Positions 1,519 through 59,865 of a stretch of 64,000 bases of DNA are shown here, in pieces. The DNA lies in the NCBI GenBank assembly GCA_946699065.1, contig CAMPDV010000209.1, positions 186,001 to 250,000 on the forward strand, given 5' to 3'. The stretch is from Loxodes magnus (taxonomy: Eukaryota; Ciliophora; Karyorelictea; Loxodida; Loxodidae). Numbering within the stretch: position 1 is the stretch's first letter; every line of letters starts with the position of its first letter. The notes below the pieces were generated by a model, which was not told the origin of the DNA, did not search any database, and saw nothing but the letters and a program-made list of their open reading frames with translations. A program made the position numbers and the translations under genes.

Positions 1519-4500
1519 GCATAATAAAGCTTGGACATATTAACATAAATGGAATTGGAAGCAAGCAATTAAACGTGGAAGAATTTATACGAAATAATGA
1601 CTTAGACATTTTCTCAATTAATGAAACGTGATAAAAATAAGACTATCCTCCAATACTTATTAATGGATATAGGACCTATTTCAAGAACTCAGGAAAAGGA
1701 GGAGGAGTTTGCTTAATTGTTAGAGATTAACTTAATAGCACGGAATAGAATAGCATATAACAATTAGCTCAAGAGAGGTTCGTTACAATCAAACTAGATA
1801 ATATATTCATAACATCTTGTTACATGCCAGATAACAGCAAGAGTGAAAATATAAAAGACGAAGCATATGAATATATAAATGTATTCCTTAATTCTTTTCC
1901 TGACAACTCACATATATTATTAGGAGATTTTAACGCACTACTATAAGGCTTTGGGGATAACCCTATTAACAACTATGACAATACAAATAGATTTTAAGAA
2001 TTCATTCTCTAAAACGATTTAGAAATAATAAACGATGCAAATATGAACACATGTTTACATAAAGGGAATAAAAATATGTATTGCAACGATTATATTGTCA
2101 TCAGTAATCACTTGAATATGAATTAATTTAGAAATTTTCAGGTTCATAATTATAGCTTATTTTCAGATCATATTCCATTCACAGTTGAATTTGTATACCA
2201 TACTCATCTTCAAACTGAAAAAATAAAAGTGAGAAAGTACAAAATAAGTAGACTGTAGGATCCTATTGATAGATTTATCTATTAGAATTCATTCAAAGAT
2301 TAAGCAGAAGTATTCTTCCTAATTGATAGAGATAACTTAGAAGATTAATACACTTATATTAGAGACTGCATTTAGAACAATGCAGATTAAGTTTTAGGCT
2401 CATTTATCCCAGACCCGAAGTATAATAGACTTCCTAAGGACCTCACATAAAAATATATCGAAGCAAAGAGAGCAAATTAATTGTACAAAGAAACTTTAGC
2501 ATATATAGGGAGGAATAACTAAGAAATCATTGATCTTCACTAAAGAGCGAACACATTATGAAAAAGCTTTTAGCATCATTTATGAAAATTTAAAAAACAA
2601 AAGGCCAAAAACAGATTCCTACTCCTCAATGAAACCACAAAAGATATGTTTTCTTAAGCAAAGAAAATACTTAACCCTAGACAAAGAAATTTGATGAACT
2701 TTAATAAGGAATTGAAGGACTAATTTGTAGAAGCATGGGAAAATTAGGTATTTAGCAAGCATTCGAATTTAACTAACCAATAGATTGAACTAAGTAACTA
2801 GAAAATAGATGCAATTTATGAAAATAACATAGAAATTCAAAATTAACCCTTTTCTTACTTATAAAATTTCGATCCTTTTACAATAGAAGAGATTACCTAA
2901 CTTATAAGTCTAATTCCTAATGGTAAAGCAGCAGGGCCAGATGGAATAAAAGGAGAACTGCTAAAATATGCAGGATATTATCTAGCGTTGATGCTTCATT
3001 CTTTTATAAATAACATGCTTAGAATTGGAAGGATTCCTGAAGAGCTTAATACTTCTATCATAATCCCCATTTTCAAAAAAGGAAGTAAAGACGATTGAAA
3101 AAACTGACGCCCTATTTCCCTTATCAATACTATTTTGAAATTATATGATAAGGCCCTTACGAAGAGACTCTACTCAATAATTTATGAAAGACAGTTAATC
3201 CACTCAAGCTAAATGGGGTTTATGAAGAACAAATAAACCACCTAATAAATATGAGTGATCCAATAAATCATAGATCTTTATCGAAAACAAGCGAAAGGAA
3301 AAACTAAACTGATTGCAACTTTAATTGACGTAGAGAAAATGTTTGATTCTATTGAAAGAAGAATTCTTTTTAAATAACTAAGAAGAGTCAAATTACCACT
3401 AGGTCTCATCTTGGCTTTAGAATCATTTTATAATAACTTAACTACTTCCTTTATTATAGACGGAACAAATTCTAAGAAATTGAAATTTAGCAATGGAGTG
3501 ATGTAAGGAAGTTCGCATGGACCTGTGCTTGCATTATTATACTATGACATTGTCATTAGACATATAGAAAACAAAGGAGAAATATTAGGATTCAGATGTG
3601 CTAATTTTAAGAATAGGTTCACTTGTAGAGGTTGAGCTGACGATTTAATACTATTATCGAACTCATAAAAAAATATGTAGTCACTTATTAATGAAGCAAA
3701 CTCCATTTTCAATTAGACATTTCTTAAAATAAATGTCTCCAAATGCGAAACGTTATAGTTTTTAAAAAAGAAAAGCAAAGAAACAAAACTAGACTTAAAA
3801 ATAGGAGACCAAGCAATAATTTAGAAACAGCAAGTCACATATTTAGGGGTGATCCTTCACCAAAAGAAGAATCTAATTAACCATTGCAAATACGTTGCTG
3901 CAAACTATCTTTCAGCAATTAAAAAGGCAGTATTTGCATTATCAAGATATAGAAACGTAACACCTTGAAATTTCAAAATGCTTTGTAGACTGTTCACGCT
4001 TCCTAAAGCAGAATACGGTGGGGACTTAATACCTTGGACTGTGCAGTATGGAATAAATGGAATCTTGAACAGAATTGAAAAGAGCATGAGATTAATAGCC
4101 AGAAAAGCCTTCTAATCAGCAGGAAATACGTTTAATGAATCATGCTTTGTAGACCTCAATTGGATGCCATTCAAACACATGATGGCTCTTAAGTATTTCA
4201 AGTTTTTCTTTAAGATTAGAAATGAAAGCTAAAATCAACCTTAATCATCTATTGGAATATTGTTTGAGAATAATTATAAAGAGGGATATCAATATTATGA
4301 TGAAGTTTAGAAACTGGCCTCATTTTATAAAATAGAAATTGATAATAAAGAGCACAATAACAACTTAATTTAATTCAGTAAATATGTGTAGACATAAATA
4401 TAAAAGACATATTTTGAATTAGCTCTTTCAAGATTCAGCAGAATGCCTACTGCATAAATATATACAGAACAATTTTAAAACCTAAAATAATTCCCCAAAA

Positions 4501-5171
4501 TAACATACACGAAATTAAACAAAAAATATTTGAAAGAAATAATTTGTATCTATAAGATTAGAAGCCAGTCTTACGCATTTCGAAAGACTCTGAAAGATCG
4601 AAATTATATTATTGAAAACCCTTTTTGTATATGCGGAGAATATGACACTCTCCAACATGTAATGGAATGCATATATTACATTGATATAAGAGAATGATTG
4701 GTCTCCAAAATTGGTTAATGTGATATTTTGAAACTAATAAGTTACGATTAACTATATATAAACTCTTTTCCTAAGAAAAAAATAGAAATGGTGGATGAAT
4801 AAATAAAAATATTCATTCAAATGTTTATTAAAAGGAGGCGAGAAATTCTATAACAAGAGAAAGAAGAAGAGCAATACGAGAAATAATAAAAAGAAGCAAA
4901 TCTAAGAATAGAAAATTTTAATGAAGAGAATGAAGAATAATAAAAACAAGAAAACAAAGAATAAGATGTCCAACAAAATTAGATGTAAAATGATGAGGAA
5001 GAAGAAGATTGGAACGAAGAGGAAAACGATAGCGAAGATGAAGAAGAAGAAGATTGACAACAGAAAATAGAAAAAAATGAAAGTTAGCTTGAAAATGAAC
5101 AAGAAAGGAAATACTTAGAAGAAAAAAAAAACCTAAACTAGAAAATTAGTTCTGAAGAGCAATAAACTTGA
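1491..5171 (+). CDS. LINE copy A ORF2: endonuclease-reverse transcriptase
   Basis: This 1,226-residue polyprotein nicks target DNA and reverse-transcribes the element RNA. Residues 1-235 are an exonuclease-endonuclease-phosphatase domain with NETW near residue 45, GDFN at 145-148 and SDH at 225-227. The reverse transcriptase spans about 470-760: GPDGIKGELL from 482, a DWKNWRPISL block, and the catalytic box WADD at 715-718, where Trp replaces the usual Tyr/Phe and is written TGA. A Cys/His motif lies at C1046, C1048, H1056, C1060, as in other LINEs. Residues ~1120-1195 are very rich in Glu, Asp and Gln. ATG 1491 precedes the endonuclease start; TGA 5169 is the likely stop, with another at 5232. 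Confidence 0.92.
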
Positions 5172-5200
5172 TATACAATAACATTTAAAAACAATATAAT

Positions 5201-5238
5201 ACCTTCAATTGGAAGAACATATTCTGAAAATTGAAGGT
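5201..5238 (+). other. 3'-terminal hairpin of LINE copy A
   Basis: ACCTTCAATT at 5201-5210 pairs perfectly with AATTGAAGGT at 5229-5238 around an 18-base loop, just upstream of the A+T-rich 3' end. Copy B has a hairpin of the same length at the same place (32324-32361) with different bases but kept pairing. Known LINEs use 3' stem-loops for recognition by their own reverse transcriptase; that role here is inferred. Confidence 0.65.
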
Positions 5239-8460: not shown

Positions 8461-8479
8461 TATTAATCTATAATCTATA

Positions 8480-9126: not shown

Positions 9127-9720
9127 TCAGAAATCTTCGGATGATTCCTCTTTTTCAAGTTCAGCTTTGCATTTTTCCATGTTTTTAATTATTTTTCCAA
9201 ATTGAGAATCTTAATTTTAATAATAAATCATACAAACTTTAAAATCCTACAGTGCTTTTCTAAACATATTTTAATGCATAAAGCACATGCCTCTTCTTTT
9301 TACTAATTTGTAATACCATTTGTTCCTTAGCTGAATGTTTCTAATTAAGTTAATTTGGGAAATAGCTTCTGAATAAAAATATATAGCCTCTGAGTAGTTT
9401 TAGGTTTGCTATTAACATAAAGTTCTATTCACAATAGCCTGATAATTTTAGGGATTTTGCATAATTAAAAGATCATACTGGATAATAGCATCTTCGTAAT
9501 TTTTTTACTTAAATATCTAATCTGCTAACAATTCCTTATCTACAGCTTCCACTTGCTTTATTTTATCATGCTAATTACGTTTACTAACTTTAGTACTGTC
9601 TGAATGCTTATTAACTGGATAATTTGAACTTATTCCTTCACACTTTGTAGCAGGACACTTCTGCTTTAAACTTTTAATTTTAGGATTCTACTTTGCTTCT
9701 TTGATCTGATTTACTTTCAT
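9127..9720 (-). CDS. TPR-like protein, 197 aa
   Basis: One uninterrupted frame from ATG 9720 to TGA 9127 gives 197 residues with TAA/TAG as Gln and no internal TGA. Residues 64-125 hold two tetratricopeptide-like helical pairs: LADQIFKQKNYEDAIIQYD, then the repeat ending NYSEAIYFYSEAI, with the small and aromatic residues placed as in TPR. A third helix pair may follow at 150-175 (FRKALQDF). The N-terminus is basic and low in order; the C-terminus is acidic (EKEESSEDF). TPRs mediate protein-protein contacts; the partner is unknown. This is one of the cleanest host genes here, and its TGA end supports TGA as the normal stop. Confidence 0.85.
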
Positions 9721-13050: not shown

Positions 13051-14345
13051 TCATCGTGTAGTCTATACTACTGTTCCTATTCCCTTCATTCTTCCTTCTC
13101 TAAATAATATTTTATCTCCTCCATATAATACTTCTGGATAATAAACGAATCTAAAATTTATTATCCCTTTGTCTCCAGTACGTATTAGTTCCTTTTCTAA
13201 ACTTATTACTTTTGCTACCTACTGTATTACTCCACAGTGTACTACTGCTTAATATCCTTCTTTTATAGTAGAAGCATCATGTAAAATTAACATTTCTGCT
13301 TCAAACTCCCATGAAGCTTAAGGTGATAATGCTTTATCCATTAGTCTCATTCCCTTACGGAAACTATTTTTTCAATATATCCTTCTTTACTAAACTTCTC
13401 AGATTAAAACATCCAGACATACCACATTCTATTTATTCTACTGCAGTTCGTTTTACATGTATTCCTCTTACTTAAACTGGTTTGAATTGTCCTTATTTAT
13501 CAGGTCCTAATAAAAGCTATTGATTTACACTTACTACTCCTGATAACATTGTTCCAGCTACTACGATTCCAACACCTGCAACTTGATAGGTACCATCTAT
13601 TATAAACTCAGCTGCATCATTTACTGTTTTAAACAATCCAGAAATGTTAGTTCTTGACTATAAGCATCTCAAATATTATTTTAAATCATCTATTCCTTCT
13701 CCTGTTACATTTGAAACTGAAAAAATAGGACATATTTTAGTTTCCATCAAATCAGCTAGTTCTTCTACATTATCTCCTTATTTACTTGTACTGGCATACG
13801 TCCAGCTCCTGGACTCTTTAGTATCTTCTTTAACTGTTCTACTGTTGATTCGTAATATTTTAAGGGCATAAATCTATTTTTGTTAAAACTATGAAAACTG
13901 GAATCTTTAAAGCGAAAGCTATTCCCATGTGTTCTTTTGTCATTCTTGATATTCCCATATTTGTTCCTATTACTATCAACGCATAATCTGGTAAACATCC
14001 AACAATTCCGAAAATTGTAGTCTTCAAATATTTTTCATGACCACATAAATCTAAAAAAGTAACTGTATGTTCTGCTTCTTATCTTATCATAACCCAAGAT
14101 TTATTCTTTATATCGATACGTCCATCAACTTCTACTTACTCTTTACCTTTAAATCCCATCAACTCCTAAGCTATACTTGAAGTTCTTCCATTTTCTATTT
14201 CGTGAGCATAATTAAATACTTTACCTCTCGCTGATCCTCTTCCATCATCTAGCAATTATTTAGTTAATACTCCTACAAGTGTAGACTTACCACTATCTAC
14301 ATTACCTATTACGGCTATTCTTACATCCTTAATTTTTATAAACAT
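13051..14345 (-). CDS. GTPBP1/GTPBP2-type translational GTPase, with apparent frameshifts
   Basis: The product resembles animal GTPBP1, an EF-Tu-like GTPase linked to ribosome rescue and mRNA turnover. G1 is GNVDSGKST (residues 14-22), then the family signature [11 protein letters not shown]3 DLCGHEK (~118) and G4 TKID (~175). Downstream blocks [38 protein letters not shown] and VHCG follow the family order, and it ends RFVYYPE...TTR-TGA. Three frame changes occur: after CPQNI, after VQVNK, and at an A-run before RKGMRL. Two need one missing base and one needs one extra. The ~150-residue N-terminal region of animal GTPBP1 is absent. Conservation around the breaks suggests assembly indels or very recent death. 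Confidence 0.85.
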
Positions 14346-14499
14346 TGTCATAATTCTATTTGTACTCTATGATGATGATTTCTTATATAATACTTTTTGT
14401 TAAAAATATTATTTATCAACCATATACCAACTATTTAAGTACTTTACTTTATAACTTTATTATAATATAAGAAGTTATTTCACCTTTACAAACACTTAA

Positions 14500-21129: not shown

Positions 21130-23010
21130 GTTTCATTGACATACTTACAAACATAAAAGATTGATAAATTAAGCTGAAGCTTAGAAAGTTTTTCCATAAT
21201 ATGAATCTCAATTTTTTGTAGAAATAAAGTCAAGAGAATTTTAATTAGCCTTCATTTTATTAACCCTTTCAGTCCATTCTTCTTTTCAAGATACTTCTAT
21301 ATTATTGGATTTTAGTTAGTTTAATCACTTCTTATATTTTTCTTCAACTGAATATGTTTATTAATTATCGCTAAAGGATTGTATTTTATAGTTGAAGATA
21401 TCTTAAGTAAAACTTCTAGTTCCATATTTTTAAGTCACGAGGTAATTTCTAGTTATTCCTAATTTTTTGAATTTAAATCTTGATTTCTTAGTTTCATTGT
21501 CTTGGTTAACGCCTTTTTATTTCTTACTTACTCAGATCTCCTTAATATCTACTAAAATAAACTTGACTATAACTTATGATTTATATATTAAATCGCTGTT
21601 GTCTTCAGCTTCAATATTACTTCTGCTTTATAAATCCTTTTTTAGGCAAACTTCGTTTAGGTTGAATTTTCCAATCGTTATATTTCCCTGAACTGTGTAT
21701 CTTTCATCCTCGTAAACTTGGATTGGAACATTTTATTAATATCTCAGCTCTGTAATTAAACCTTTAATTTTAGTTGGAGTTACTATAGTTTTAGGAGCAA
21801 CTACTTCAAATAATCCTGATGCTGCTTTTACTCCAAGGCTTAGAGGGGTTAAATCTCCACTAAGGATTTAATTATCTCTGGATTATTATTAATTAAAGTA
21901 GTACCCAAATAGCAACTCTATGTACTATTATTTCTTCAGATTTGTACTTTTAAATATCTCTTTCCACTTAAAAATAGCTAAACTTACTACTGAATTCTAG
22001 GAATTTTCGCAGGTTCTCCCACTTGAAATACCTCAATTCTTTATTGCTTAGTCGTAGCTCCAAATAGAAGTTGATCTATAATGTCTATAATACTTGGAAA
22101 AGCCCAGAGTTAAATTCCTTGAAACGAGCTCTGTAATTTTAGTTGCATAATTAACTTCTTAGAATAACTATTATTTTAAATATCAGCACCTAACTAATCC
22201 GCTAATTTTCTTTTGTACTTCAATCTATTTTTTAACCTTCTCTACTTTTTAATTATTTCGAACGTTGAAACATGCTTTTATTAAAAAGCTGTTAAAGAAT
22301 TCTTATATTCTTGCAATAAAAGTCTTATTCTCCTATATGGATTTACAACTATTTCCTTTATTCGAAAACTTCATCATCAGATAGCTGAAAGCTGAGTCTA
22401 ATATTTATTCTTCTAAGCTATATATAAATGTAATTTTTTGCTTTAAATATTTTTTCATGTTTCGACAAATATTCTACAGCTGTTTATTTTTTAATTACTC
22501 TTTTTGTGACTAACCCTGCATTAACTCCTGCTTAGTTAAGATATTATCTTTATAGATTCTTGAAGTAACTAAGATTGGTAATAACTGCGTGCTTATTAAA
22601 TAGTCCTTAATGGCTTTCTGCATCTTTCTTGTCTGTTGCTAAAATAAAGGAAATATCTCTTCTTGGTTAAATTATCTAGTCTCATCTCTAAAATTGACTA
22701 TCTACTTGGTTAATCTCTTTTACCAGATACCAGCTTAAAAGAGATACTATTTGATTTTTCTTAGACAGCAGTTTCTTAAAAGTTTCTACCTATTGACAAT
22801 TTCTGAACGAAAAATCATATTATTAGGGTTTCTAAAAAATTGACATAAATCTTAATCTACTTTAAATTTATCTTACACAATCGAGGCAACGTAAGAAGAT
22901 ATAGTTGTATTCTCTTAATAATTCACTTAAATTTTAGCTTATATTGAGCACCTTAGTAGGTGTAAGTATTTTCTAGCCTAAATCTAAATGATTTAACTAG
23001 GTTCTTAAAT
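21130..23010 (-). pseudogene. Hsp70 (DnaK family) pseudogene, full length but decayed
   Basis: Blocks appear in Hsp70 order on the minus strand. LDLG near 22985 parallels IDLGTT. NTTISSYVAS parallels RTTPSYVAF, and NPNNMIF parallels NPTNTVF. SYFKNLQRQYLNQAGVNAGL parallels the YFNDSQRQATKDAG.IAGL block. YRARFKEFNSGLF parallels TRARFEELNADLF, and KIPRIQQ parallels RIPKIQ. DLTPLSLGVKAASG near 21840 is the start of the substrate-binding domain, followed by PIQVYEDER and GKFNLN. Blocks lie in different frames and the phosphate-binding DLGGGT is not found. The span of 1.9 kb fits a whole cytosolic-type gene. Function is lost. Confidence 0.82.
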
Positions 23011-27374: not shown

Positions 27375-29775
27375 GTTTATATGCGAAATGCATAATTAAT
27401 GATCTCTTAATTTATTTATTCTATTAATAATATTCCCTTTGCTATTTAGACTTATTTTCTACTGATACTTATTAATAAACAATGTATGGTAAATGAATAA
27501 TTAAATCTAAGTCTCTTGGTTTATTCTAAGGGTATAGCATAATATTATATATTTGTTTAGTATCTTTGTACTATCTTAGATTTAAACTAGAAGTAGTAAA
27601 TTAATTGGATTTAATGTAGAAGTAGGTAGTAGTAAGAGTATGGTTATATTTAATAGTAATATTGGTATTAAATATTGGTAATATTAATTTAAATAATAGA
27701 TATTTACTTAGTTTATTAGTTTCTATTTAGCATACTATTAGTTATTTACTCTTAGTATCTATTATATTAAGCTTATATTTTAGTATTCTTTAGATTTATT
27801 ATCTAACTAATTTACTAGAATGCATTACCATTATTAAAAACTAAATTTACTACTTCTATTATCATAAGAGAATTAGGTGCAAGTAAAGTAGGAGGTTTCC
27901 TTATAAAGGGATTACTTTAATTCAATTAATTCTAAATGCTTTTATCATCAATAGTTGTCTTAATTCAAGAATCAATTGCTAAAATACCTTAGAAGAAGAA
28001 CCTTTTTATTAATTTTATGGATACTTTGTAATTATAACTCTCTTTATTGCTTTGATTCTATTTTAACTTAATTAAAGAATGAATATAATATCTTCTTTAT
28101 AATATACTAAGCGTACAAGTAATATATTGTGTATAGAATTATTAGAGATATGCACATTTAATAAATTTAATAAAAGAGAATTAGAAAAGTAATAGATTAC
28201 TAAATAGAAACTTTTAGTTAAATAGTAGGCTAATTTTTAATTAAGATACAGTCAATTCTAAAAGTTCTCTAAATTAATTTAAAAAGTACTATGGAATTAA
28301 TAATAATATTTTAATTTTATCCTAAAGATAAAGATAATTAAACTAATAATAGAGAGCTTCAATAGCTAAAGGATTATATTAATATTTTATTAACGTTATA
28401 ATAATTAAATATATCAGAAAGCTGTATAAGATAGCTTTATTTTAAAGCATTAGACTTAATTGAACCTATTATTTGCTTAGCATTTAATAATCTTAAGATA
28501 ATTAAGAAAACTAGTTATTAGCTATATAAAATAATAATCCAATATTATATAATCTATTAGGGTTAATTATCTTTATTATTAAGTTAATATGCAGGCTTTC
28601 AATTATTAATTTGAAAATAATAAATTGAATATATGTTTAGTTAACTATTTATATTTCTTTATATTTGAAAGGAAAAATAAATAAATTTCTGGAGATTAAA
28701 TATTTTAATATTTAATTATCTAGAGGATATTAACTAAGTTTATTTAATTATTATTTAGTTATAATAAGCTTTAAGCAGTTTATATTTCTATTATTTTAAC
28801 TATTTAAACCATAAAATTATTTTGTGAGCTTTTTACTTTTTATTTGTCTAAAGCTAATAATGGTAATTTTTAACATTTTGGTTAAAGAAATAAAAAATAA
28901 ATTTAAATTTGAGAAATTTGATATTTTAATTTATTTATCTAGTTAAAAAGTATCATAAGTCTCTAAAGGAATATAATAATATCCTCTAATTTAAACATAC
29001 TCCTAGCAAAATTAAAAGGTATAGTATAATAAAATAGCTAAATTGCTTTGCATTAAATAAGTTTAATTATTTTACTCAAAAACACTGATTTTCATTTTAA
29101 GTTATTATAAGTTTATCAATTATATTTTTAAAGCTACCTCATTTTTTCTTCACTAATAAGCATAGATAGCAATTCTAACATACTTAAAATAACTATTTCT
29201 TAAAAAGCTTTAGTTTTAATTTATTTTTTAGGTTTTGATGTCTAAGTAATTTAAAAGGATCTCTTAAATTTAGCAAAATAAATATGATTTTTTAAATTTA
29301 AAGTATTTATTCATTTCTTAGTTTTTGATAATTATAATAAGTTAGAAAATGCTTAATTCTAAGCAGCAGCTATTTATGCTGAATCGATATTTTTAAGTGG
29401 TTTTAATTTTTTTGTTTAGAAAAGTATTATTATTTCCCTTATATAAAGCATTGTAGTGATTTTTAAATGTATAAATAATTAGTTGTAAATGAATATTAAA
29501 GAAATGTACTATATATAATTAAGAATTATATATCTCTATAACTTAATTATTAACCTAATTTTATATTTAAATATATCAGAAACTTTATTTTCCTTTATTC
29601 AATTTTCCTTAAATCATAGGCAGGATTTTAGGCTGCTCTGAGAAGAGTTAATATGTTAAGCAATACTGATATATATAAAAGCTTAATTATATGTGATATA
29701 TTAAGAATTTTTCCTACAAACTTATCTACAATTCTTTTAGATATATTAAGATAATCTCGAACATTAATATCAATT
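27375..29775. other. A+T-rich spacer
   Basis: About 2.4 kb with no supported gene. A plus-strand stretch around 29240-29420 reads slightly better but has no recognisable motif. Confidence 0.5.
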
Positions 29776-29779
29776 TATC

Positions 29780-32400
29780 AAAAGTTACATCTAAGACAAT
29801 GCTGATTAAACATTAGAATCCTTTATTCCAGACTCAAATTATAGCAAACTTCCTCGAAATCTAATAAAGAAATATATAGAAGCTAAAAGGGTTAATTCAG
29901 TATATAAAGAAGCTCACATTAATTTGGAAGAATAAATTAATAAGTAACTAATCTTCATGAGACAGATAAACGACTTTAAAAAGACTTCAAGTATAATCTA
30001 AGAAAGTTTAGAAAAAGTAAAGCAAAAAAGAAATTTCTACTTCTAAATGGAGATGCTAAGGAAATGTTTTCACATGCTATAAAAATTATAAATCCTAAAA
30101 AGGGAATTAAATGAACTTTAATTAAGAAATCAAAAATAAATTCATTGATTTATGGGAGAATTGTGTTTTTAACAAGCATTCTAATCTAACTCAATAATGA
30201 ATAAATCTTAGTAATCAAAAACTAAATAAAATATACGATAGTATTCAAGAAATTAAAGATGATCCACTCTCATATTTATAAGGATTTTTACCATACAAGA
30301 AATATAAGAATTATAAAAGCAATTCCGAATGGAAAAGCAGCTGGTCTATATGGAATAAAAGGTGAACTTCTGAAATATGGTGGATTATATTTGTTAATAA
30401 TTCTTCATTCTTTTCTGAATAATATATTAAGACTTGGAAGAATCCCTTAGGAATTAAATGCATCAGTGATAATTCCAATATTTAAAAAGGAAATAAAGAG
30501 GATTGGAAAAATTGACAATCTATTTCTCTTATTAATACTATTCTAAAATTATATGATAAAACTTTAACAAAAATACTATACAATCTGATTTATTAGAGAA
30601 ATTTAATTCCCCCTTCATAAATGGGATTTATGAAAAATAGATAAACAACTTAATAGATTTGAATAATATAACAAATAATTGATTCTATATGAAACGTACT
30701 AAAGGTAAGACTAAACTGATAGTAACACTGTTAGATGTTGAAAAAATGTTTGACTCAATAGAAAGAAGATTTCTGTTTAATCAACTTAAGAGAGTTAAAC
30801 TACCATTTGAACAAATAAAAGCCTTAGAATCGTTTTACAAAATCTAAACTCTTCATTTATTATAGATGGAAATATCACTAGAAAGTTATAATACAACAAT
30901 GGAGCTATGTATGTAAGCTAGCAGGAATTGTTTTAGCATTGTTGTATTATGATATAGTAATTAGATATTTGGAAAGCAAAAGTACCTACCTGGGATTCAA
31001 ATGCTAGGATTCGAGTATTAGCTTCGCTTGCAGAGAATGGGCAAATGATCTGATTCTTCTTTCCAAATCTGCAAAGTAGATGTAGGAGTTAATAAATGAA
31101 ACAAGTAAGATTTTTGCATAAACTCACTTAAAGATCAATGTTACCAAATCTGAATACATATAAATTTTAAAGAAACATTATAAATAATAAAACTTAAATT
31201 TATGATTAGAAATTTAACCAATTATTTAAAAAGAAAAAGTAACATATTTAGGTGTAATTCTACATAAGAAGAAGAATTTTAATCCTCATTGTAGAGAAAT
31301 CGCGTTCAAGTATAAAGCTGCAATGAAAAAGCTGTTTTTTAACTAATGAGATATAAGAATGTGACTCCTTGACATTTTAAAACTTAACAGACTTTTTTAC
31401 ACTACCTAAAAAGAATATGGAGGAGAACTAGTATCATGGTTTATTCAAAAAGGAATAACTGGAGTTTTGAATAGAATTGAGTCAAACGTGAGAATGATTT
31501 CAAGAAAAGCATTTTAAGCAGCAATTTCAACTTTTAACAAATCATGTTATATAGATTAAACTGGCTACCTTTTAAGCACATTATGGCAATGAAGTTTTTT
31601 TATTATAATATAAAATGAAATAAGAAAGCATTTATTTTCCAAGATAGAAAATAGGTTCTCTTTTCATTACCAACTGGAAAAAAGGGCTTCAATACTATGA
31701 TCAAATTTAGCAACTATCAGACCTCTATAGTATCAACCTGTAGAATTCCAAGATTAGTACAAATTAAGAAACCTTTACTAAATATATAAGAGACAAAATA
31801 CAAAAATATTTCTATATTACAGCTACTCAAAAGTTTAAGAGAATCAAAATAGCTAAAATATATACCAAGCAGTTTAGTAATCATAACCAATTTCCAGTAA
31901 TTACTTATACTAAGTTGAGCAAATAATTTAGACAAGAAATTATCAGTATATATAAACTTAGAACCTAATCCTATAATTTTCCAAAAGATCTTTAAGATCG
32001 TCACTATCTTATTGATAATCCCTACTGTATGTGTGGAGATTATGATACATTCGAGCATATTTTTAAATGTATATACTATTCTAATATAAGAGATTGACTA
32101 TATTATAAGATTAAGGATTTATAAACTCCTTTCAGAAGTCTTATTTGTATATTTAGATTTATAAATAAAAATATTTCACAAGAAACTTGTTTCAAGAAGA
32201 CTAGAATTATTAGAAATGGAAAAAGCAAAAAAGAAAGAAATAAAAGATGAGATTATAACAAGAGTAATTATAAATTGATGATATCAAGAATATAATTAAA
32301 AAACATTAAAAGCATTTACTAATATCTATAATTGAAGGCAGCAATTCTTGCAGTTATAGATCTACAAAAACTCTTTTAGTTTAAAATTTAAATTTAAATT
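29780..32400 (+). mobile_element. LINE copy B, 5'-truncated and decayed
   Basis: This is homologous to copy A ORF2 from about base 2365 onward. DNADQTLESFIPDSNYSKLP begins near 29800 (copy A: NNADQVLGSFIPDPKYNRLP). IPNGKAAG.YGIKGELLKYGG lies near 30325, DWKNW near 30500, DVEKMFDSIERR near 30740, and an active-site region CREWANDLILL at about 31030 where the first catalytic Asp is Asn. A partial CCHC region follows near 32030 and the 3' hairpin is at 32324-32361. Several frame changes and the truncation make it dead. The endonuclease and ORF1 are absent, as is typical of incomplete reverse transcription. Wherever copy A uses TGA for Trp, this copy often has TGG. Confidence 0.92.
32324..32361 (+). 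other. 3'-terminal hairpin of LINE copy B
   Basis: ATCTATAATT (32324-32333) pairs with AGTTATAGAT (32352-32361), ten pairs with one G-U. It is in the same position as the copy A hairpin. Three stem positions differ by paired changes relative to copy A. Confidence 0.65.
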
Positions 32401-33997: not shown

Positions 33998-35254
33998 TTA
34001 AATAGGTGTGGGATTTTCACTGAAATTATCAAAGCGATTTAGCAGATTTTTATTAGTGCAAGCATCAACATATTAAACATCTCCACTGTTTCCATAATGG
34101 ATAAATCCCCATTAACTTTTATCATTCATCATGCATTCTCTTGATAACAATCTTTTCCTTTTCGCTTCTTCCATTGGTAAATTAGAAACGATAAAAGACA
34201 AAATTACTCCTACCATGTTTCTGTTTATCTTTTTTAAAAGAATTTTTCTTGCTTAAGTGTAAAATGAAGTACTTTCTAAAGGTTTTTCGGGATCTACAAT
34301 AAAAAAGTTTATAAAAAGCCTTGACAGGGGTTCATTTGTATAGTTTTCTAGACTTAGAAATTTGTGAGGCAATTCATTAGAAAATACAATTGCGGATCCT
34401 TCTTTAACATCTACTGTTTTTGACATTTATATATTAATACTCTTAGCATAACCGGGATCTGGTCCTACTTTAGGGTGGAATACTACTTTATCAACAGGAA
34501 ATTAATCTATTTTTACGTAGTAAACTCCTGCAGCTACTATATTTTCTGTCTTTCCTTCTACATGTCATTTTCCTGAATACCATGATTCAGGAGCAATTAC
34601 ATATTTCTATGCTTTTACTACCACTTATAATTTATTCATTTAATTTTCTTTTACAATATCTAACTTCTTAAAAGCAGGAATCATAGCTTTGAAAACAGTA
34701 AATATGTGATTATAGAGAGTGACATTTTTTTGAATATCTAAGTTTCTTATTTCTCCTCCAATCTTTATTTATTCTTTTTCGTCTATTCAAACATCTACTG
34801 GAAACCATGCATACTTTGATCGCTCATTATTAAGCTCACTATATTCACATCTAAGCTATCTTTCAGTCTACTAAGTCTTTTATTGGTTTTTAACCGGAGG
34901 AGCAATGAAGTAGTTAGGATTGAGATCGGGATCTATGATATCTAAGACAGGTTTATCTTCATGCCAGTCATTAAGCTTTTATCCTAACTGCTCTAATTCC
35001 TACTCTAATTCTTCCTTGACTTTTATAGGCACAGGTAGTTATTCCGAAAAAAAGAGTGGATATTTCAAATTTGCACTTCCTCCATCACCATAAACTACGA
35101 ATTAATCTTCTCCAATTTAGGTAAAAATTTCATACGAACATTGTTGTTCTTCCTATTACTCTACTTTATCCTCTTGTTAAGGAATGCTTCATTCATATTC
35201 TTAAACGTTTTTTTATAATTATTTATCATTCTTATTTTGCATGCTTTCTTCCAT
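33998..35254 (-). CDS. DUF4246-type protein, about 418 aa
   Basis: One frame from ATG 35254 is open with TAA/TAG as Gln and TGA as Trp. The core VVVKAQKYVIAPESWYSGKW followed by HVEGKTENIVAAGVYY matches DUF4246, a family known mainly from fungi. The Trp of the WHVEG motif (residue 230) is encoded by TGA. LPMEEAKRKRLLSRE near residue 355 corresponds to the conserved family end. A weak acidic and Gln-rich N-terminus precedes. The molecular function of the family is not established. The end is uncertain: TAA 33998 follows closely, whereas the first in-frame TGA is at 33773. A 59-base GT...AG segment near 34015-34075 could also be an intron that brings in an earlier TGA. Confidence 0.82.
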
Positions 35255-35590: not shown

Positions 35591-36463
35591 GTTAAAAAAA
35601 GTTAAAAGTTAAAAGTTAAAATGCTTTGTTAAAGCCTTAGTAATCAGCCATCTGACCTATTCTGTTAGCTTGCCTCCATTAGTTTGTCTTGAATTCCTAC
35701 TAGACTTAGTTAGGCTGTGTAGCACTTCTTTAGTGTACCATCCTTTATATTCTGAATAGCTTTAGTCTTGCACTTAGCGTTCCTAATTATTTATCCAAGG
35801 ATTAAGATTTTAATTAAAGAATTTTTTTCTATAAATTTTTCCGCTTTATGTTGGATATATCCTAAATAGTTTTCTAAAAATATCTTATTTATTCTTTCTT
35901 TAAATTTCGCTTAGTTAGTAGCAGTATTTTCATTGGTGTTATTTATTGCACACGTAGCATTTTATTCTTCTTTTAAACTATTATTCCTGAAACACTTATT
36001 TATCTTAAATTTACTACTTATTTTAAATAAACGTTTACTGTTTATTTTAATTTGAGGCTTCATTTTCTATTTCCATAGGATCTGATCAATTCTGTTAAAA
36101 CGTAAATGGCGTTACCTGAATTGATTATTAAATTTGAAGAATTCTTTGTTCCAGTTTGTTTTCTATTTCTTATGATTATTAATATTGTTTCTCAAGTAAA
36201 GATGTTATTAGTTTTTCTAATTTTTCTACTTTATCAGTGAGGTATCTATTTTTGAACATAAACTTTTTTAATGACTTAGATAATATTTCTATTTGAGTTT
36301 ATGTCGGAAGTTTTTTTAATTCTGGATTTCCAAGTGGCTAATGTTCGTCGTATCACTCGAATTTCTCACTTTCACTCATTGTAATTATTTCGCTTTTTTA
36401 TTTTTTAGAGAATTTTCCTGTTTAAATATTTTGTTCAAAGTTCTGTTATTTCTTAGAAGCTAT
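35591..36463 (-). mobile_element. Half-LINE-like element, copy b (zinc-knuckle ORF plus repeat tail)
   Basis: About 870 bp, nearly identical to the inverted copy at 50391-51258. It begins (minus strand) at AATAGCTTCTAAG near 36463, carries an ORF from ATG 36379 and ends in tandem TTTTAAC units at 35591-35620, the kind of short-repeat tail made by LINE machinery. The protein starts MSESEKFEWYDEH, has a coiled coil (VEKLEKLITSLLEKQ) and a knuckle-like CYVC-NKQ-H-QWKY-C, one residue shorter than canonical. Beyond it the coding potential moves to a second, overlapping frame with an Alba-like look. No reverse transcriptase is encoded, so mobilisation must be in trans. Confidence 0.75.
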
Positions 36464-36542
36464 TTTTTATTTAATAATTTTAATTGATTAATATAATAAC
36501 ATATTGGCATTCTTATAATTTTTAACCTCTTACCGCCTATCT

Positions 36543-43500: not shown

Positions 43501-46500
43501 AATTCTAGTACAGTTTCGTTAATATGAATATAGATCTTCTTAGTTCTCATAAAATGAGATTATAGAAGTTTACTTCAATCAGTATAGTGAATAAGACACA
43601 CTATGAACATTCTAGCATAAACTCCCTGGATATAGTTTAAAAGAAAAAGTATATGAAACAGATAAAGTTTACATCATAAAAGTATTAAACTGATAATAGG
43701 AAGTTAGAATTATAAAGTTTATTAAATCAGCTAGAAATCATCAGAGAATTGAGTAAATCATCAAAAAACTATGAAATTCTAATGAAACATACTAATAGTA
43801 CTGTGTTCAAATTTATAGCTATGATATCTCTCAAAAGAATTAGTATTGGATAGAAATGTAATATTGTGAGCAAGGATCCTTATATCAACTGAGCAATAAT
43901 AGAAATTAATCAAACTTTGAGTTTGACTGAATTAATAGAATCACTCTATTTCTTATAGATGCATTTGCTTTTCTTTAAAATTTAGAAATTTCCCATTAAG
44001 ATATCAAGCCTCATAACATCTTCATTGACTAGCAAGCAAATTTAAAAATAGGAGATTTTGATTACTCAGATCCTTAAAGTTAGATTCAAGAGTCTACTTC
44101 AGCTATCTATACTTAAGGCTACCAATCTCCTTAAATATTCTATAAAGATAGAAATTTATATAAGTCAGATGCATTTTCATTAGGAATTACTTTACTTGAA
44201 GTTATAACTCTTAGAAACCAAGATCATCTTAAACTGAATGAAGTAAAAAGAGATAGCTAAGAGCTATATGATTTAATAGGATAGCTAATAAATGATTGCT
44301 ATCCCAACTAAAATAGAGAACTCTTATAATGGAGTCTATTTCTAATGCTTTAGTATGATGAAGAAATGAGATGTGACTTTAAATAATTATAGCAAGCTTA
44401 TAGGAATTAAGCCATAGATTATCTAAAGTATAATATAAAATAGTATAACTTAAAGTAAAAGGTAGAAATCTAAACTAATAGTGATTACATCATAAATAAT
44501 GAAGGTATATCTATGTCTGTAGAAAATACCTAAGAAACTCCATTTTTTTCATTAATTTAAAGTGAGGATTAGTCAGTTAGTTAGCAATAGGTTTCTTAAG
44601 TGTCTGACTTAATAAAATAGAAAAATAGCAACTTAGGTACTTCTAAACTTACAAAGACAATTTAATTGTCTTATAGGTTAAAAAATAGTTTGTAAGGCTT
44701 GTATAAAATAGAGAAAATTCCTTATCTTAAACTAGATGAAATAGAATCTAATTATTCTTAATCCTTTTATTTGATTTACCTATAGTAGTAAAAGCTTTAT
44801 ACATAGCAATATACTAAATACTTCATTTCTAGTTAAGTTGTCTATCAATCAAAAATTTACATTGGATAAGTTTGCTCCTAATTATTTCCTGAGGGAATGG
44901 GAAGACTTTTATATGAAGAAATGTATTATGAAGGAGAATTTAGAAATGGATTTAAAAATGGAAATGGACTTCTCATTAACCTAGAGAACAAAACTATAGA
45001 AAGAGTTTATTATGAGTATGATAAAAAAATATACTCATAACTAATACTAAATCTAAACTACAAGCTAGATATCTCAATTCTAGACACTAACATATACTTT
45101 CCATTACTATAAATTAATGATTTAAGGATAAAGAAACTAATAGAAAGATTTACTGAAATAATGACTACAAAGGTAGCTATAGAAAAAAATAGACTTTGCT
45201 TAGTTAATATTAATTAATAAGAAATCTATGAAGGAGAGATAGATTCACTAAATAAACCACATGGTTATGGAAAAATATTTAATAGGTAAGAAAAACAAAT
45301 ATTATAAGGATTTTTTATAAATGGTTTAATATAGGGAAAAGGCATTTTAATAGATTTAGAAGACTAAAAAATAATAAGAACTAAGCACTGCTTTAATAGA
45401 CTTTTAAACCAAAAAATAATAAATGATCCAGTAGAATTTTAAAATACAAGAAAATGAGATAAAAAGTTTGTAAAATGATCTTTTCAGTATAAGAAACTGA
45501 AAAGCATACAAAATATAGAGCATGATTTAAGTTAATAAGAACTACAAAGCTATTTATCTTTTATGTAAGAAGAGCTATTTTAGTGAATGTTTTAAACATT
45601 AAAGCAATCATTCCAAGTAATTGAAAAAGAAAGACTATAAATAGATCTATGATAATTTTATATAACAAAATAAAAATAACAAATTAGCTTAAATACTAGA
45701 AATGTAAATTAAATGCTAATGATTAAAATAATAGAACTATTCTAAAATTTATAACATTAAATTGATACAAAATTTTAATAAATTTAGATGTCTAAAAACT
45801 TAAAAGAAGTAGTTTAGTTATATGAACTTACTAAATAAATCTTAAAAAAGGAAATAAAATAGAAAGTTTTAAAATTACAGCATTTAATAATATACTTTTC
45901 AAAGTCACAAATAAATCAGAACTTTTAAGCATAGAGTCAGTAACTAATGATAAATAAACTAGGTGAAAGAAATGAAGCGTAAAAATACTAAATGTAATAA
46001 TAGTATTTAAAAACAGATTATTAAATAGAATAAAAGGACTAGAGATACATCTTTTAAAATGGTATTTCATTAAACCTAAATTTTTACAATATAATAGGAT
46101 TATTCATGAATGAAATGGGTGCTTAAAATACAATTTCTTATTGAATAAATGGAGTTATCTATGAGGGTGATTGGTTATAAGATTAAAAGCATGGATAAGG
46201 AAAATATAAATATAAAAATGGAGATATTTATGAAGGATAGTGATATGAAGGATAGAGGTAAGGAAAAGGAATTGAGATTTACTCAGATGGAGATAGCTAT
46301 GAGGGTGATTGGTTATAAGATTAAAAGCATGGATAAGGAAAATATATATTTAAAGATGGAGATATTTACGAAGGATAATTATATTAAGGAAAAAGATAAG
46401 GAAAAGGAATTGAGATTCACTCAGATGGAGATAGCTATGAGGGTGATTGGTTATAAGATTAAAAGCATGGATAAGGAAAATATAAATATAAAAATGGTGA

Positions 46501-46828
46501 TATTTATGAAGGATAGTGATATGAAGGATAGAGGTAAGGAAAAGGAATTGAGATTTACTCAGATGGAGATAGCTATGAGGGTGATTGGTTATAAGATTAA
46601 AAGCATGGATAAGGAAAATATAAATATAAAAATGGTGATATTTATGAAGGATAGTGATATGAAGGATAGAGGTAAGGAAAAGGAATTTAAATTTATGTAA
46701 ATGGAGATAGATATGAGGGTGATTGGTTATAAGATTAAAAGCAATGATAAAGAAATTACAAAGTTATAAATGGAGAAATTTATGAAGGATTGTGGACGAA
46801 TGATAAGCTAATAAAGAAAAATATATAA
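40589..46828 (+). CDS. Giant protein kinase-MORN repeat protein, about 2,079 aa
   Basis: A single frame runs 6.2 kb with TAA/TAG as Gln and about 25 internal TGA as Trp, with no break. Residues 1-1000 are an unrecognised, partly helical region. A protein kinase domain spans ~1015-1290: VAIK-type Lys K1031 (YIIKVL), catalytic loop HQDIKPHN at 1136-1143 (HRD Arg replaced by Gln) and GDFD at 1155-1158 where DFG is expected. MORN repeats occur singly at ~1447 (YYEGEFRNGFKNGNG), ~1547 and ~1570, then as a 23-residue array at 1855-2060 (YEGDWLQDQKHGQGKY, YEGQWYEGQRQGKG). MORN arrays often bind membrane lipids or structure the cell cortex. ATG 40589 is the first good start. TAA 46826 follows the last MORN; the next in-frame TGA is 47099. 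Kinase activity is uncertain given DFD. Confidence 0.93.
46163..46740 (+). repeat. 138-bp tandem repeat encoding paired MORN motifs
   Basis: GAGGGTGATTGGTTATAAGA recurs at 46163, 46301, 46439, 46577 and 46715, an exact 138-base period. Each unit encodes two 23-residue MORN motifs. Units are nearly identical at the DNA level, implying recent duplication or gene conversion. Confidence 0.95.
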
Positions 46829-47680
46829 CATCAATTAAAATAATTATCTAAATTTCATATATTTTTACTATTTTCTTATTTAGTTAACAATCAATTTTAG
46901 AAATTTTTTGTTATATTTACTTCTTATGGATTCTTCTTTTCTCTATACTTATTATTTAAATCAAAATTTTATACTTTTGAAGTCTTCCTGTAGTTTAAAA
47001 TTTACTTTTTTCTTGGAATAATTAATTAAATATATTTCTATAGCTGTTTTTTATCTAAAAAATTTAGATAAAGATACCTTTAATTAAAATTGCTCTAGTG
47101 AACCAAAATATTGAGATAGTCGAAGTTGGTGTTTAAAATGGTAAACTATACTAGATACTTAGCAAATAATTCGTAACTTTATGGAGTTTATTTATTAATA
47201 CTTATCATGCTTGCTAGACTATTAATTATTGTAAATTGAGCTAAAGAGTGAAACTAAGGATTATTTGGATTCTTGGAAAAGATTAAACTAAATAGCAAAA
47301 CAAATATTAAAAATTTACCTATGCTTTTATTTTTCAAACAATCTTCATCATTCTATAATAATAAGTTTTCAAATTAACCAACTTTAGTTATATACATAAA
47401 GTATAAATAATCTTCCTATTTCATTAAGTTAGTTCCAAAGTTATATTATTTTTGGTCATACTATCTCTAATATCCCTAAAGATTGATCTTTAAATATATT
47501 AAATTCTTCAAATCTACAACTAGTAATTTTTATAGCTTGAATAGAATTATCTAATAACTCTATTCAAATAATTAATCTTTAAAACTTCATAATAACAACT
47601 TTTTAGCAGTCTCTAATTATTAGATTTTATGTTTTAGTTTTTTTTATAAACATTGAAATATTCCTCCTATTTAAATAAAT
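46829..47680. other. A+T-rich spacer
   Basis: No gene seen. It would contain the last 90 codons of the kinase-MORN gene if only TGA terminates (TGA at 47099), but that reading is low-complexity and hydrophobic like translated spacer. Confidence 0.5.
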
Positions 47681-47684
47681 AAAT

Positions 47685-48040
47685 AAATTTGATTATAGAG
47701 CGCGTAGCACTCTCATTGGTGCGCAGCTCTTTAAAAAAATGTTTCATACTGACAAGAATGTTTGTTACTGATAAAATTATCAGATACTGATAAACCTTGT
47801 ACAATACTGGTATAATTATTCAGTACTGATAAAAATGTTCAATACTCATATAATTTTAGAATACTCGTATCTTTAATACTTGTTGGAGGTCCAAGGACAT
47901 GGCAGGATTGTGTCTCATTGCATCACCAAAGCAGAGGACGACATGTGTCAATTAAGGGTACTTAAATTCCCCACCTCTGATGAAGATGACCTTGTTGTTC
48001 ACCTTCGAACAACTATGACGGTTTTAAAGAAATATATATA
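47685..48040 (+). repeat. SINE-like repeat S5
   Basis: Head at 47697-47735, then a body with repeated AATACTGATA-like motifs (ATACTGACAAG, TTACTGATAAA, ATACTGATAAA, AGTACTGATAAAA), then TTGGAGGTCCAAGGACATGG and CAAAGCAGAGGACGACATG, ending TTCGAACAACTATGACGG near 48028. The first 190 bases are about 95 percent or more identical by eye to S7 at 59365. It lacks the second internal module present in S7. Confidence 0.8.
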
Positions 48041-50218: not shown

Positions 50219-50390
50219 TTTATATATCCATATAATAATAATTAAAAAAATACTTTAAAAAAAAATCAGATAGCTAAATTTTAATTTAACCTCAATAGCT
50301 AATCTGATCTGATATTAGTAAAGTATATTTGAAATTATTTTTCCATTTAAGTTAAAACAAAATAGGATTAAATTATTATATATATATATA

Positions 50391-51258
50391 AAATGGCTTC
50401 TAAGGAATAACAGAACTTTGAACAAAACATATAAACATGAAAATTCTCTAAAAATAAAAAAGCGAAATAATTACAATGAGTGAAAGTGAGAAATATGATT
50501 GATATGACGAACATTAACCACTTGGAAATCCAGAATTAAAAAAACTTCCGACTCAAACTCAAATAGAAATATTATCTAAGTCATTAAAAAAGTTTATGTT
50601 TAAAAATAGATACCTCACTGATAAAGTAGAAAAATTAGAAAAACTAATAACATCTTTACTTGAGAAACAATATTAATCATCATAAGAAATAGAAAACAAA
50701 CTGGAACAAAGAATTCTTCAAATTTAATAATCAATTCAGGTAACGCCATTTTCGATTTAACAGAATTGATCAGATCCTATGGAAATAGAAAATGAAGCCT
50801 CAAATTAAAATAAACAGTAAACGTTTATTTAAAATAAGTAGTAAATTTAAGATAAATAAGTGTTACAGGAATAATAGTTTAAAAGAAGAATAAAATGCTA
50901 CGTGTGCAATAAATAACACCAATGAAAATACTGCTACTAACTAAGCGAAATTTAAAGAAAGAATAAATAAGATATTTTTAGAAAACTATTTAGGATATAT
51001 CCAACATAAAGCGGAAAAATGTATAGAAAAAAATTCTTTAATTAAAATCTTAATCCTTGGATAAATAATTAGGAACGCTACGAGCAAGATCAAAACTATT
51101 CAGAATATTAAAGGATGGTGCGCTAATGAAGTGCTACACCGCTTAACTAAGCCTAGTAGAAATTCAAGACAAACTAATGGAGACAAGCTGATAGAATAGG
51201 TCAGATGGCTGATTACTAAGGCTTTAACAAAGCTTTTTAACTTTAACTTTAACTTTAT
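50391..51258 (+). mobile_element. Half-LINE-like element, copy d
   Basis: This is the inverted partner of 35591-36463, very similar throughout. It starts AAATGGCTTCTAAGGAATAA at 50391 and ends in TTTAAC units at 51234-51258. The main ORF starts at ATG 50476 (MSESEKYDWYDEHQPLG): coiled coil at residues ~35-90, knuckle-like CYVC-NKQ-H-QWKY-C near 160. From about 50900 a second overlapping frame reads much better: INKIFLENYLGYIQHKAEKC, LIKILILGQIIRNATSKIK and EQVRWLITKALTK, which has the pattern of an Alba nucleic-acid-binding domain. Both copies share this arrangement, so it predates their separation. The 5' and 3' limits are set by where the two copies stop matching. Confidence 0.78.
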
Positions 51259-58221: not shown

Positions 58222-59286
58222 ATGGAGTAAAAAGAAAAGCAATTTACTAAAAGTATTTTTTTAAGAAAAATCCTAAGAGCGAGAAACCACATTTTAGGGA
58301 AAGTATCTCTACTTCATTTTAAGTATGAAATTCTGCCAAACTTATGTTACTAAAAGCTTATAAACAAGATCAGTTATGACCAAAGTAAAGGTATTTTTTG
58401 AATATTTTTAGACTAAATCCTCACTGGTCACACTTCAAATATTTGATCGGTAGCCATATCAAGTGACTCTAGCTATATCGTATCAGCATCTTACGATACA
58501 ACCATAAAGATCTGAAATTTCCACAATGGTTCTCTCATAAGAACTTTAACAGGACATACTGATTCAGTTTCCTCGGTAGTAATCTCCCCAGACTCTAAAT
58601 ATATTGTATCAGCATCTTGGGACACAACTATAAAGATCTGAAATTCGTAGACTGGTTCTCTCCTAAGAAATTTAACGGGGCATACTTCCCCAGTTGGATC
58701 GGTAGTAATCTCCCCTGACTCTAGCTATATAGTATCAGGGTCTGGTGACAAAACTATAAAGATCTGAAATTTCCACAATGGTGCTCTCCAAAGAACTATA
58801 ACAGGACATAATTCTGATGTTTTATTGGTAGTAACTTCCTTTTACTCTAAATATATTATATCAGGATCTTGGGATTAAACCATAAAGATCTGGGATTTCT
58901 AGACTGGTCAGCTTGTGCGAACTCTAACTGGGCATTCAAGTTCAGTTAGATCAGTAACAGTGTCTAAGGATAATAGGTATATAATATCAGGTTCGGATGA
59001 CAGGACTATTAAGATATGGGACTTCTCTTCTGGTTAGTGTATTCTTACTCTTCAAGGTCATACAAGAAGTGTATCAAGTATCCATTTAAGTATTGATTCA
59101 AGTGTTATCTTTTCTGGTTCATGGGATGAAACAATCAAGATCTGGAACTTTGATAAGGGTGAGTGCATATCGACTTTATAAGGGCATGCAGGATCAATAT
59201 ATTCTATAGCATTGAGTGTTGATAATAGATGGTTGGCATCGGGAGCGGATGACAAGACGATTAGAAAGTGGAGGGTTTCGAGTTGA
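58222..59286 (+). CDS. WD40-repeat protein, 354 aa
   Basis: A single frame from ATG 58222 to TGA 59284 encodes a basic N-terminus (MEQKEKQFTKSIFLRKILRA) and seven WD repeats from about residue 72 to the end, enough for one complete beta-propeller. Each repeat has the GH...SV...SPDS.YIVS.S.D.TIKIW pattern; the last ends TIRKWRVSS. Trp of the WD dipeptide is written TGA in repeats 1-3 and TGG in repeats 4-7. Two more TGA Trp codons occur upstream (GIFW, NIWSV), yet the gene ends at a TGA. Propellers act as scaffolds; the partner is unknown. Repeats share much DNA similarity, suggesting recent expansion. Repeat S7 begins 80 bp downstream. Confidence 0.95.
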
Positions 59287-59364
59287 GTAATTTATAATTT
59301 GACTTAGATTAATTTTATGATAAATAAAAATTATTGGTTATTCATTTAAAAAATGTTTAATAAA

Positions 59365-59865
59365 TAAATTTGATTATAGAGCGCGTAGCACTCTTGTTGG
59401 TGCGCAGCTCTTTAAAAAAATGTTTCATACTGACAAGAATGTTTGTTACTGATAAAATTATCAGATACTGATAAACTTTGTTCAATACTGGTATAATTAT
59501 TCAGTACTGATAAAAATGTTCAATACTGATATAATTTTAGAATACTCGTAATCTTTAATACTTGCTGGAGGTCCAAGGACATGGCAGGATTGTGTCTCAT
59601 TGCATCACCAAAGCAGAGGACGACATGTGTCAATTATGGGTACTTAAATTCCCCACCTCTGATGAAGCTCGCAATATTATTTCTTTTTCGTTCCAGAATT
59701 AAAAATAAACGAAACCAGTCCGAAAGTCTAAGAATCTTATGTCTCGAGGCCAAACCAAAGCAGAGGAAGACATAAAGTCGATTATGGGTACTTAACTTCC
59801 CCAACCTCTGATGAAGACGACCTTGTTGTTAACTTCGAACAACTATGGCGGTTTTAAAAATATAT
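59365..59865 (+). repeat. SINE-like repeat S7 with internal duplication
   Basis: Head at 59379-59415, body nearly identical to S5 for about 300 bases, ending TTCGAACAACTATGGCGG near 59855. It contains the module ACCAAAGCAGAGGA(C/A)GACAT...GATGAAG twice, at about 59607 and 59754, whereas S5 has one. The minus strand of both modules reads LH(Q/H)RLGK-like, as does S2, so a coding origin cannot be excluded. Confidence 0.82.

Follow-up and report, generated by a model that had tools for sequence, protein, structure and literature searches.

Homology that does not presuppose the genetic code supports a reading of the analysed DNA (the whole stretch of 64,000 nucleotides, here referred to as the window) in which TGA is both tryptophan and stop, and TAA and TAG are glutamine. 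Very probably the window comes from the nuclear genome of a karyorelict ciliate that uses NCBI table 27, with Loxodes or one of its near relatives as the best candidate. This code is already known, as are its ambiguity and its use by karyorelicts, from publications of 2016 on Parduczia (PMC4967479) and of 2024 on Loxodes (PMC11441545). Under the standard code merely 2 complete ATG-started open reading frames of at least 100 amino acids are listed in the 64 kb, against at least six genes with Pfam matches.

Both meanings of TGA in a WD40 gene

The frame at 58222-59286 gives, under table 27, 354 residues followed by a terminal TGA, and a seven-repeat propeller is obtained from it only when TAA, TAG and TGA are all read through. 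The Pfam WD40 profile matches the product in seven stretches. TGA is present at codons 60, 75, 98, 140, 182 and 355, TAA at codons 3, 44, 65, 219 and 320, and TAG at codons 143, 227 and 272. The gene and its TGA codons are listed below.

58222-59283, + strand: WD40 gene with seven repeats and 354 codons under table 27; Pfam WD40 6.2e-83; PDB matches obtained with the stop triplets masked as X.
58399-58401, + strand: TGA, codon 60, read through; 2 aligned homologue cells, 0 with Trp.
58444-58446, + strand: TGA, codon 75, read through, outside the conserved Trp columns; Trp in 4 of 63 cells.
58513-58515, + strand: TGA as Trp, codon 98 (repeat 1, IKIW); Trp in 58 of 59 cells.
58639-58641, + strand: TGA as Trp, codon 140 (repeat 2); Trp in 61 of 65 cells.
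58765-58767, + strand: TGA as Trp, codon 182 (repeat 3); Trp in 62 of 66 cells.
59284-59286, + strand: TGA as stop, codon 355, at the end of repeat 7, with a drop in coding signal and GC.

The seven repeats are 42 residues each and carry the tryptophan of an IKIW motif (IRKW in repeat 7), whose codon is TGA in the first three repeats and TGG in the other four. We masked TAA, TAG and TGA as X, and likewise TGG, CAA and CAG as controls, and fetched 77 prokaryotic WD40 loci, 74 of which yielded an alignment; 88 cells within the search seeds were excluded from the count because those seeds had been built with TGA as Trp. As a result, TGA codons 98, 140 and 182 lie opposite tryptophan in 181 of 190 homologue cells, and the TGG codons of the sister repeats in 186 of 202 (55/63 at codon 224, 58/64 at 266, 52/54 at 308 and 21/21 at 350). 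The other TGG codons of the gene (133, 217, 301 and 337) fall outside the Trp columns of this alignment. The initial annotation, made from the sequence alone, had placed TGA at the WD tryptophan of three repeats with TGG in their sisters, and the homologues bear this out. It had also read all five internal TGA codons as tryptophan, which stands for codons 98, 140 and 182 but not for codons 75 and 60, neither of which is a conserved tryptophan; these two are evidence for an open frame only, and we leave their residue unspecified.

The uneven distribution of TGA and TGG along the gene (Fisher P=0.0047) was set aside, since repeats 1-3 appear to be recent duplicates and do not count as independent. 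Moreover, the gene says little about glutamine, since Gln is the commonest residue in the homologue alignment opposite neither TAA/TAG nor even CAA/CAG.

The second meaning of TGA, also claimed initially for this gene, is found at codon 355, which comes after the final strand of repeat 7. The GC content is 0.38 over the last 75 codons and drops to 0.12 beyond this TGA. A short interspersed repeat occupies 59359-59667, with a copy 97% identical at 47678-47985 and fragments near 8477 and 5803. Only 72 bases separate the terminal TGA from this repeat, so the unique 3' sequence is limited.

Residues read at TGA, TAA and TAG

The other genes on which the analysis draws are the following.

1422-5234, + strand: LINE frame encoding an endonuclease and a reverse transcriptase, with 11 TGA in frame; TGA stop at 5232-5234.
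9127-9720, - strand: TPR gene; Pfam TPR_2 1.6e-08; TGA stop at 9127-9129, adjoining the coding boundary.
13051-14360, - strand: core of a GTPBP1-family GTPase; TGA stop at 13051-13053; three frame changes.
34001-35254, - strand: DUF4246 gene; TGA as Trp at 34565-34567 (KWHVEG); TAA at 33998-34000 and 34073-34075 near its end.
43640-44401, + strand: protein kinase domain; Pkinase 2e-25; frame common to the MORN array.
45938-46825, + strand: MORN array with TAG, TGA and TAA as sense codons; MORN 6.3e-59 over the longer stretch 44858-47000.

The MORN array consists of near-identical units of 138 bp (46 codons), and three of its five units contain YEG-TAG-TGA-YEG-TAG-R-TAA-G, in agreement with the early claim that all three triplets are in sense here. 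The kinase domain and the array lie in one frame (43640-46825, + strand) with five in-frame TGAs between them (45455-46142), and they may represent a single fusion gene or two separate ones. A TGA at 46745-46747 (+ strand), in the last MORN unit, takes the place of GGA (Gly) in the sister units; it might be either a substitution to tryptophan or the true end of the gene.

We then read one triplet as different residues in turn and compared the bit scores of the Pfam domains. With TGA, tryptophan scored best on WD40 (270.2; next Y, 263.8) and Exo_endo_phos (41.5; next K, 40.1), with ten residues compared on each, and also on MORN (184.4; next F, 181.0) and DUF4246 (78.5; next F, 76.4), with five residues compared. 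The DUF4246 result includes the TGA of the WHVEG motif, which had been pointed out before. On RVT_1, Y (114.6) and F (111.1) exceeded W (111.0), presumably on account of a TGA at the residue preceding ADD of the catalytic YADD motif, and on Exo_endo_phos_2, G, F, Y and C (38.3-38.5) exceeded W (38.0). Among WD subfamily models, tryptophan had the top score on several, including WDR3, EIF3I and Gbeta, but not on WDR5 (Y, F and L higher), Prp19, THOC3, WDHD1, WDR55 and a second MABP1 model. Judged by these profile scores, TGA as tryptophan is favoured on four of the five main Pfam models and the overlapping models are mixed. The comparison with the WD40, MORN and DUF4246 profiles proposed in the initial annotation comes out for tryptophan on all three.

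For TAA, glutamine was the best of ten residues on RVT_1 (111.0; next S, 105.1) and on Exo_endo_phos (41.5; next H, 41.1), and on Exo_endo_phos_2 E (39.3) and A (38.8) exceeded Q (38.0). For TAG, glutamine was the best of five residues on Pkinase (90.1; next K, 89.6, a difference of 0.5 bit) and on Exo_endo_phos, and second on RVT_1 (111.0) behind E (112.5). The assignment of both triplets to glutamine, suggested from the beginning, is thus upheld by the profiles, with weaker support for TAG than for TAA.

A solved structure provides a further comparison. The GTPBP1 homologue comprises four pieces joined by three frame changes, and three of the pieces match the solved chain well. Of the 15 masked TAA/TAG codons in these three pieces, three (two TAA and one TAG) lie opposite glutamine in PDB 9ypg, with P about 0.02 if Gln is assumed to make up 4% of residues; by piece the matches are 0/5, 0/6 and 3/4, all three in the C-terminal piece. 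The frame changes may reflect an assembly error, an intron, recent decay or programmed shifting. Introns behind the first and third are unsupported, as no GT..AG of 15-30 bases with a fitting length class was found at either. At the second, GT..AG lengths of 23 and 26 fit but would excise residues that, by eye, match the family. Introns of 16-25 bases were not recognised by eye in the genes of the window.

We also counted codon usage in six Pfam-matched regions (2409 codons, with the final TGA of the TPR gene omitted) and obtained 22 TGA, 22 TGG, 120 TAA, 42 TAG, 41 CAA and 15 CAG. Half of the tryptophan codons (22/44) are therefore TGA, which amounts to 9.1 sense TGA per 1000 codons (22/2409, 0.91%), and the three triplets together stand in sense positions 76 times per 1000 codons (184/2409). 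If read as glutamine, TAA is the commonest Gln codon in the counted regions. An HSP70-like region contributes 186 codons; without them the counts are 20 TGA and 22 TGG in 2223 codons (20/42). This region (21172-22245, - strand) has several frame changes and, by eye, altered motif residues. These suggest decay, and we consider it probably a decayed copy and did not rely upon it.

Could TGA always be a stop, as in the ordinary ciliate code (table 6), with the genes here being pseudogenes or recoded? The frame changes in the GTPBP1 homologue and in the HSP70-like region would suit such an explanation. Nevertheless, TGA falls on a conserved tryptophan in the 181 of 190 cells given above, the WD, MORN/kinase, DUF4246 and LINE frames all contain TGA, half of the tryptophan codons counted are TGA, and the WD, DUF4246 and LINE frames are free of frame changes over 1.1, 1.2 and 3.8 kb. 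We regard this explanation as having practically no chance of being correct.

Other repeated sequences were observed in the window. A second, related LINE copy at 29696-32112 (+ strand) is about 71% identical to 1422-5234 over 1.2 kb, and its protein matches are divided between frames, as in a broken copy. An element of about 890 bp has two copies with 95% identity (50367-51256, + strand; 35598-36484, - strand), with no Pfam match in the single frame searched per copy. A search for viral-contig relatives of GTPBP1 and of the LINE reverse transcriptase returned no locus.

Codons at the ends of genes

The stop codon was examined in six Pfam-anchored genes only, namely WD, GTPBP1, LINE, TPR, DUF4246 and MORN; neither the HSP70-like region nor the broken LINE copy was used. 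The restriction to anchored genes was decided after composition-only tests had failed, and the TPR gene was added last, changing 3/5 to 4/6. With boundaries from a codon model trained on five of the six tested genes (all but LINE), four of them (WD, GTPBP1, LINE and TPR) have an in-frame TGA no more than three codons from the coding boundary. The chance of at least four in six is about P=0.0009, with a width of three codons that was chosen after looking. GC in the 60 bases after these TGA stops is 0.08-0.13, compared with 0.25-0.36 in the coding sequences. Moreover, TAA and TGA are absent from the last 20 codons before the four stops (0/80, expected 4.72, P=0.0077). This depletion, seen in four genes only, is carried mainly by TAA (expected 3.99, P=0.017), the expectation for TGA alone (0.73) being uninformative. 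TAG occurs once in the same codons (expected 1.39), four codons before the GTPBP1 stop.

The composition-only approaches did not recover TGA as terminator in their gene models. An unsupervised codon HMM run over the window found coding regions but assigned the WD gene mostly to the wrong strand, and its output served only for choosing stretches for Pfam. An HMM with a free terminator codon chose GC-rich codons for starts and terminators alike. When each of the 64 codons was used as the sole terminator, TAA exceeded TGA by 21 log units and TAG came last among the three. However, AAT and GAA equalled TAA in fit, and the control was unsuccessful, with ATG ranking 15th as start. Boundary enrichment in 24 composition-defined segments gave no signal for TGA (2/144 at 3' boundaries vs 20/1272 in the flank), and the ATG control for the same segments was unconvincing (3/144 at 5' boundaries vs 14/1245).

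The ends of the DUF4246 and MORN genes are different: the only one of the triplets near the likely end is TAA. Their coding signal fades near TAA (34000 or 34075 in DUF4246; 46826 in MORN), the sequence past the TAAs at 34000 and 46826 has no coding signal, and the next in-frame TGA follows 75 and 91 codons later, respectively. For MORN, the TGA at 46745-46747, 27 codons before the TAA at 46826, is an alternative stop. Strict table 27 predicts a nearby TGA, so these two ends go against it. A TAA stop is possible for both genes and no more than that, because chance alone would put a TAA within three codons of 37% of boundaries and a TGA might be concealed by one-base errors.

Two readings would give TAA a role in termination. 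According to the first, TAA and TGA both have a double meaning, and TAA, also the commonest Gln codon, ends a share of genes such as DUF4246 and MORN. We hold this to be rather unlikely, and the TPR gene, which ends in TGA, lowered its odds slightly further. If it were true, ribosomes would have to distinguish sense from stop among potential TGA stops that are far denser than in the species examined by ribosome profiling. Seah et al. in 2022 reportedly mentioned a minority of UAA stops.

According to the second, which we judge improbable, the code is of the Condylostoma type (table 28), in which all three triplets have both meanings, and TAA would terminate some genes of the window. The two TAA ends, the distance to the next TGA and, taken at face value, the preference of the 64-codon model for TAA are in its favour. 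This preference loses its weight with AAT and GAA ranked equally high and a failed ATG control, however, and the TAA ends lose theirs with the chance frequency just given and with hidden one-base indels that could have erased a TGA. Furthermore, none of the six anchored genes has a clear TAG end, a sense TAG stands four codons before the GTPBP1 stop whereas C. magnum is reported to deplete all three triplets before stops (PMC4967479), and the window has 9.1 sense TGA per 1000 codons (22/2409) against 0.42 given for C. magnum in the same paper.

Comparison with known codes and a model of decoding

The initial annotation had named both table 27 and table 28. In our comparison of the sequences, table 27 fits the window better than table 28, because TGA ends four of the six anchored genes and none ends clearly in TAG, because TAA and TGA, but not TAG, are absent just before stops, as in Loxodes, and because the LINEs and the base composition agree with Loxodes. 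In Loxodes magnus, TGA and TAA, but not TAG, are avoided in about 20 codons before the stop, as presented in Fig. 3C of PMC11441545. The same paper gives a GC of 33.5% in coding sequences and 18.6% after stops, introns of about 17 bp in Loxodes, and LINE domains at about 100 times the next highest count in ciliates. The window has in common with L. magnus, as described there, the code, the pattern of depletion before stops and the LINE domains (PMC11441545); its coding GC (0.25-0.36) compares with the 33.5% of that species, and its flanks are somewhat more AT-rich.

More generally, the karyorelicts reported to use table 27 (Parduczia sp., PMC4967479; Loxodes magnus, PMC11441545) resemble the window in TAA and TAG as Gln, TGA as Trp and stop, and AT-rich sequence after the stop. 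Sense TGA is roughly eightfold more frequent here than in the published figure for Parduczia (9.1 vs 1.2 per 1000, or 0.12%; PMC4967479). Condylostoma magnum, with table 28, is described with the same sense meanings, but TAA may also end its genes (PMC4967479), and the window has no evidence for a TAG stop. A difference from table 27 itself is that two of the six genes are without a nearby TGA.

Blastocrithidia nonstop has another such code, table 31. As in the window, all three triplets are sense and UGA is Trp, but UAR is reported as Glu and UAA as the termination signal, where TGA is the stop here (PMC12153298). The dinoflagellate Amoebophrya sp. ex Karlodinium veneficum likely has sense assignments identical to those of the window (UAA and UAG as Gln, UGA as Trp; PMC12005148). 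However, the genome reported there is 65.2% AT against 75.6% in the window, its stop-containing genes have about 25 such codons per 1000 (13.6 per 549 aa) against 76, and its MAKER genes average 2.6 exons, whereas no intron was recognised by eye here (PMC12005148). An origin of the window from this dinoflagellate is very improbable.

How ribosomes tell sense from stop was singled out initially as the interesting part; a published model, proximity of the poly(A) tail, already exists (PMC4967479). Swart et al. reported in 2016 that Condylostoma translates the triplets, on the evidence of ribosome profiling and mass spectrometry. In their proposal the triplets are translated by default and become stops when the end of the transcript is near, probably through poly(A)-binding protein (PMC4967479). 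For Loxodes, a tRNA-Trp(CCA) whose anticodon stem has 4 bp has been reported (PMC13092985). For the present organism we infer the decoding machinery from this work on other species. Such a tRNA would read UGA by default, and UAA and UAG would be read by glutamine tRNAs. eRF1 would win only where a short AU-rich 3' UTR leaves UGA near the poly(A) tail, and this rule would lead to selection against sense UGA and UAA just upstream of the true stop. The AT-rich sequence after TGA and the local absence of TAA and TGA in the window are consistent with the poly(A)-proximity model. ARAGORN and Rfam found no tRNA or other RNA gene in the window.

As this code demonstrates, a genome can do without any codon reserved for termination, which bears on how a release factor chooses between sense and stop. 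The window contributes a clean worked example, in which sister repeats have TGA and TGG at the equivalent tryptophan and the same gene ends in TGA, and it adds the possibility that TAA serves as a minority stop.
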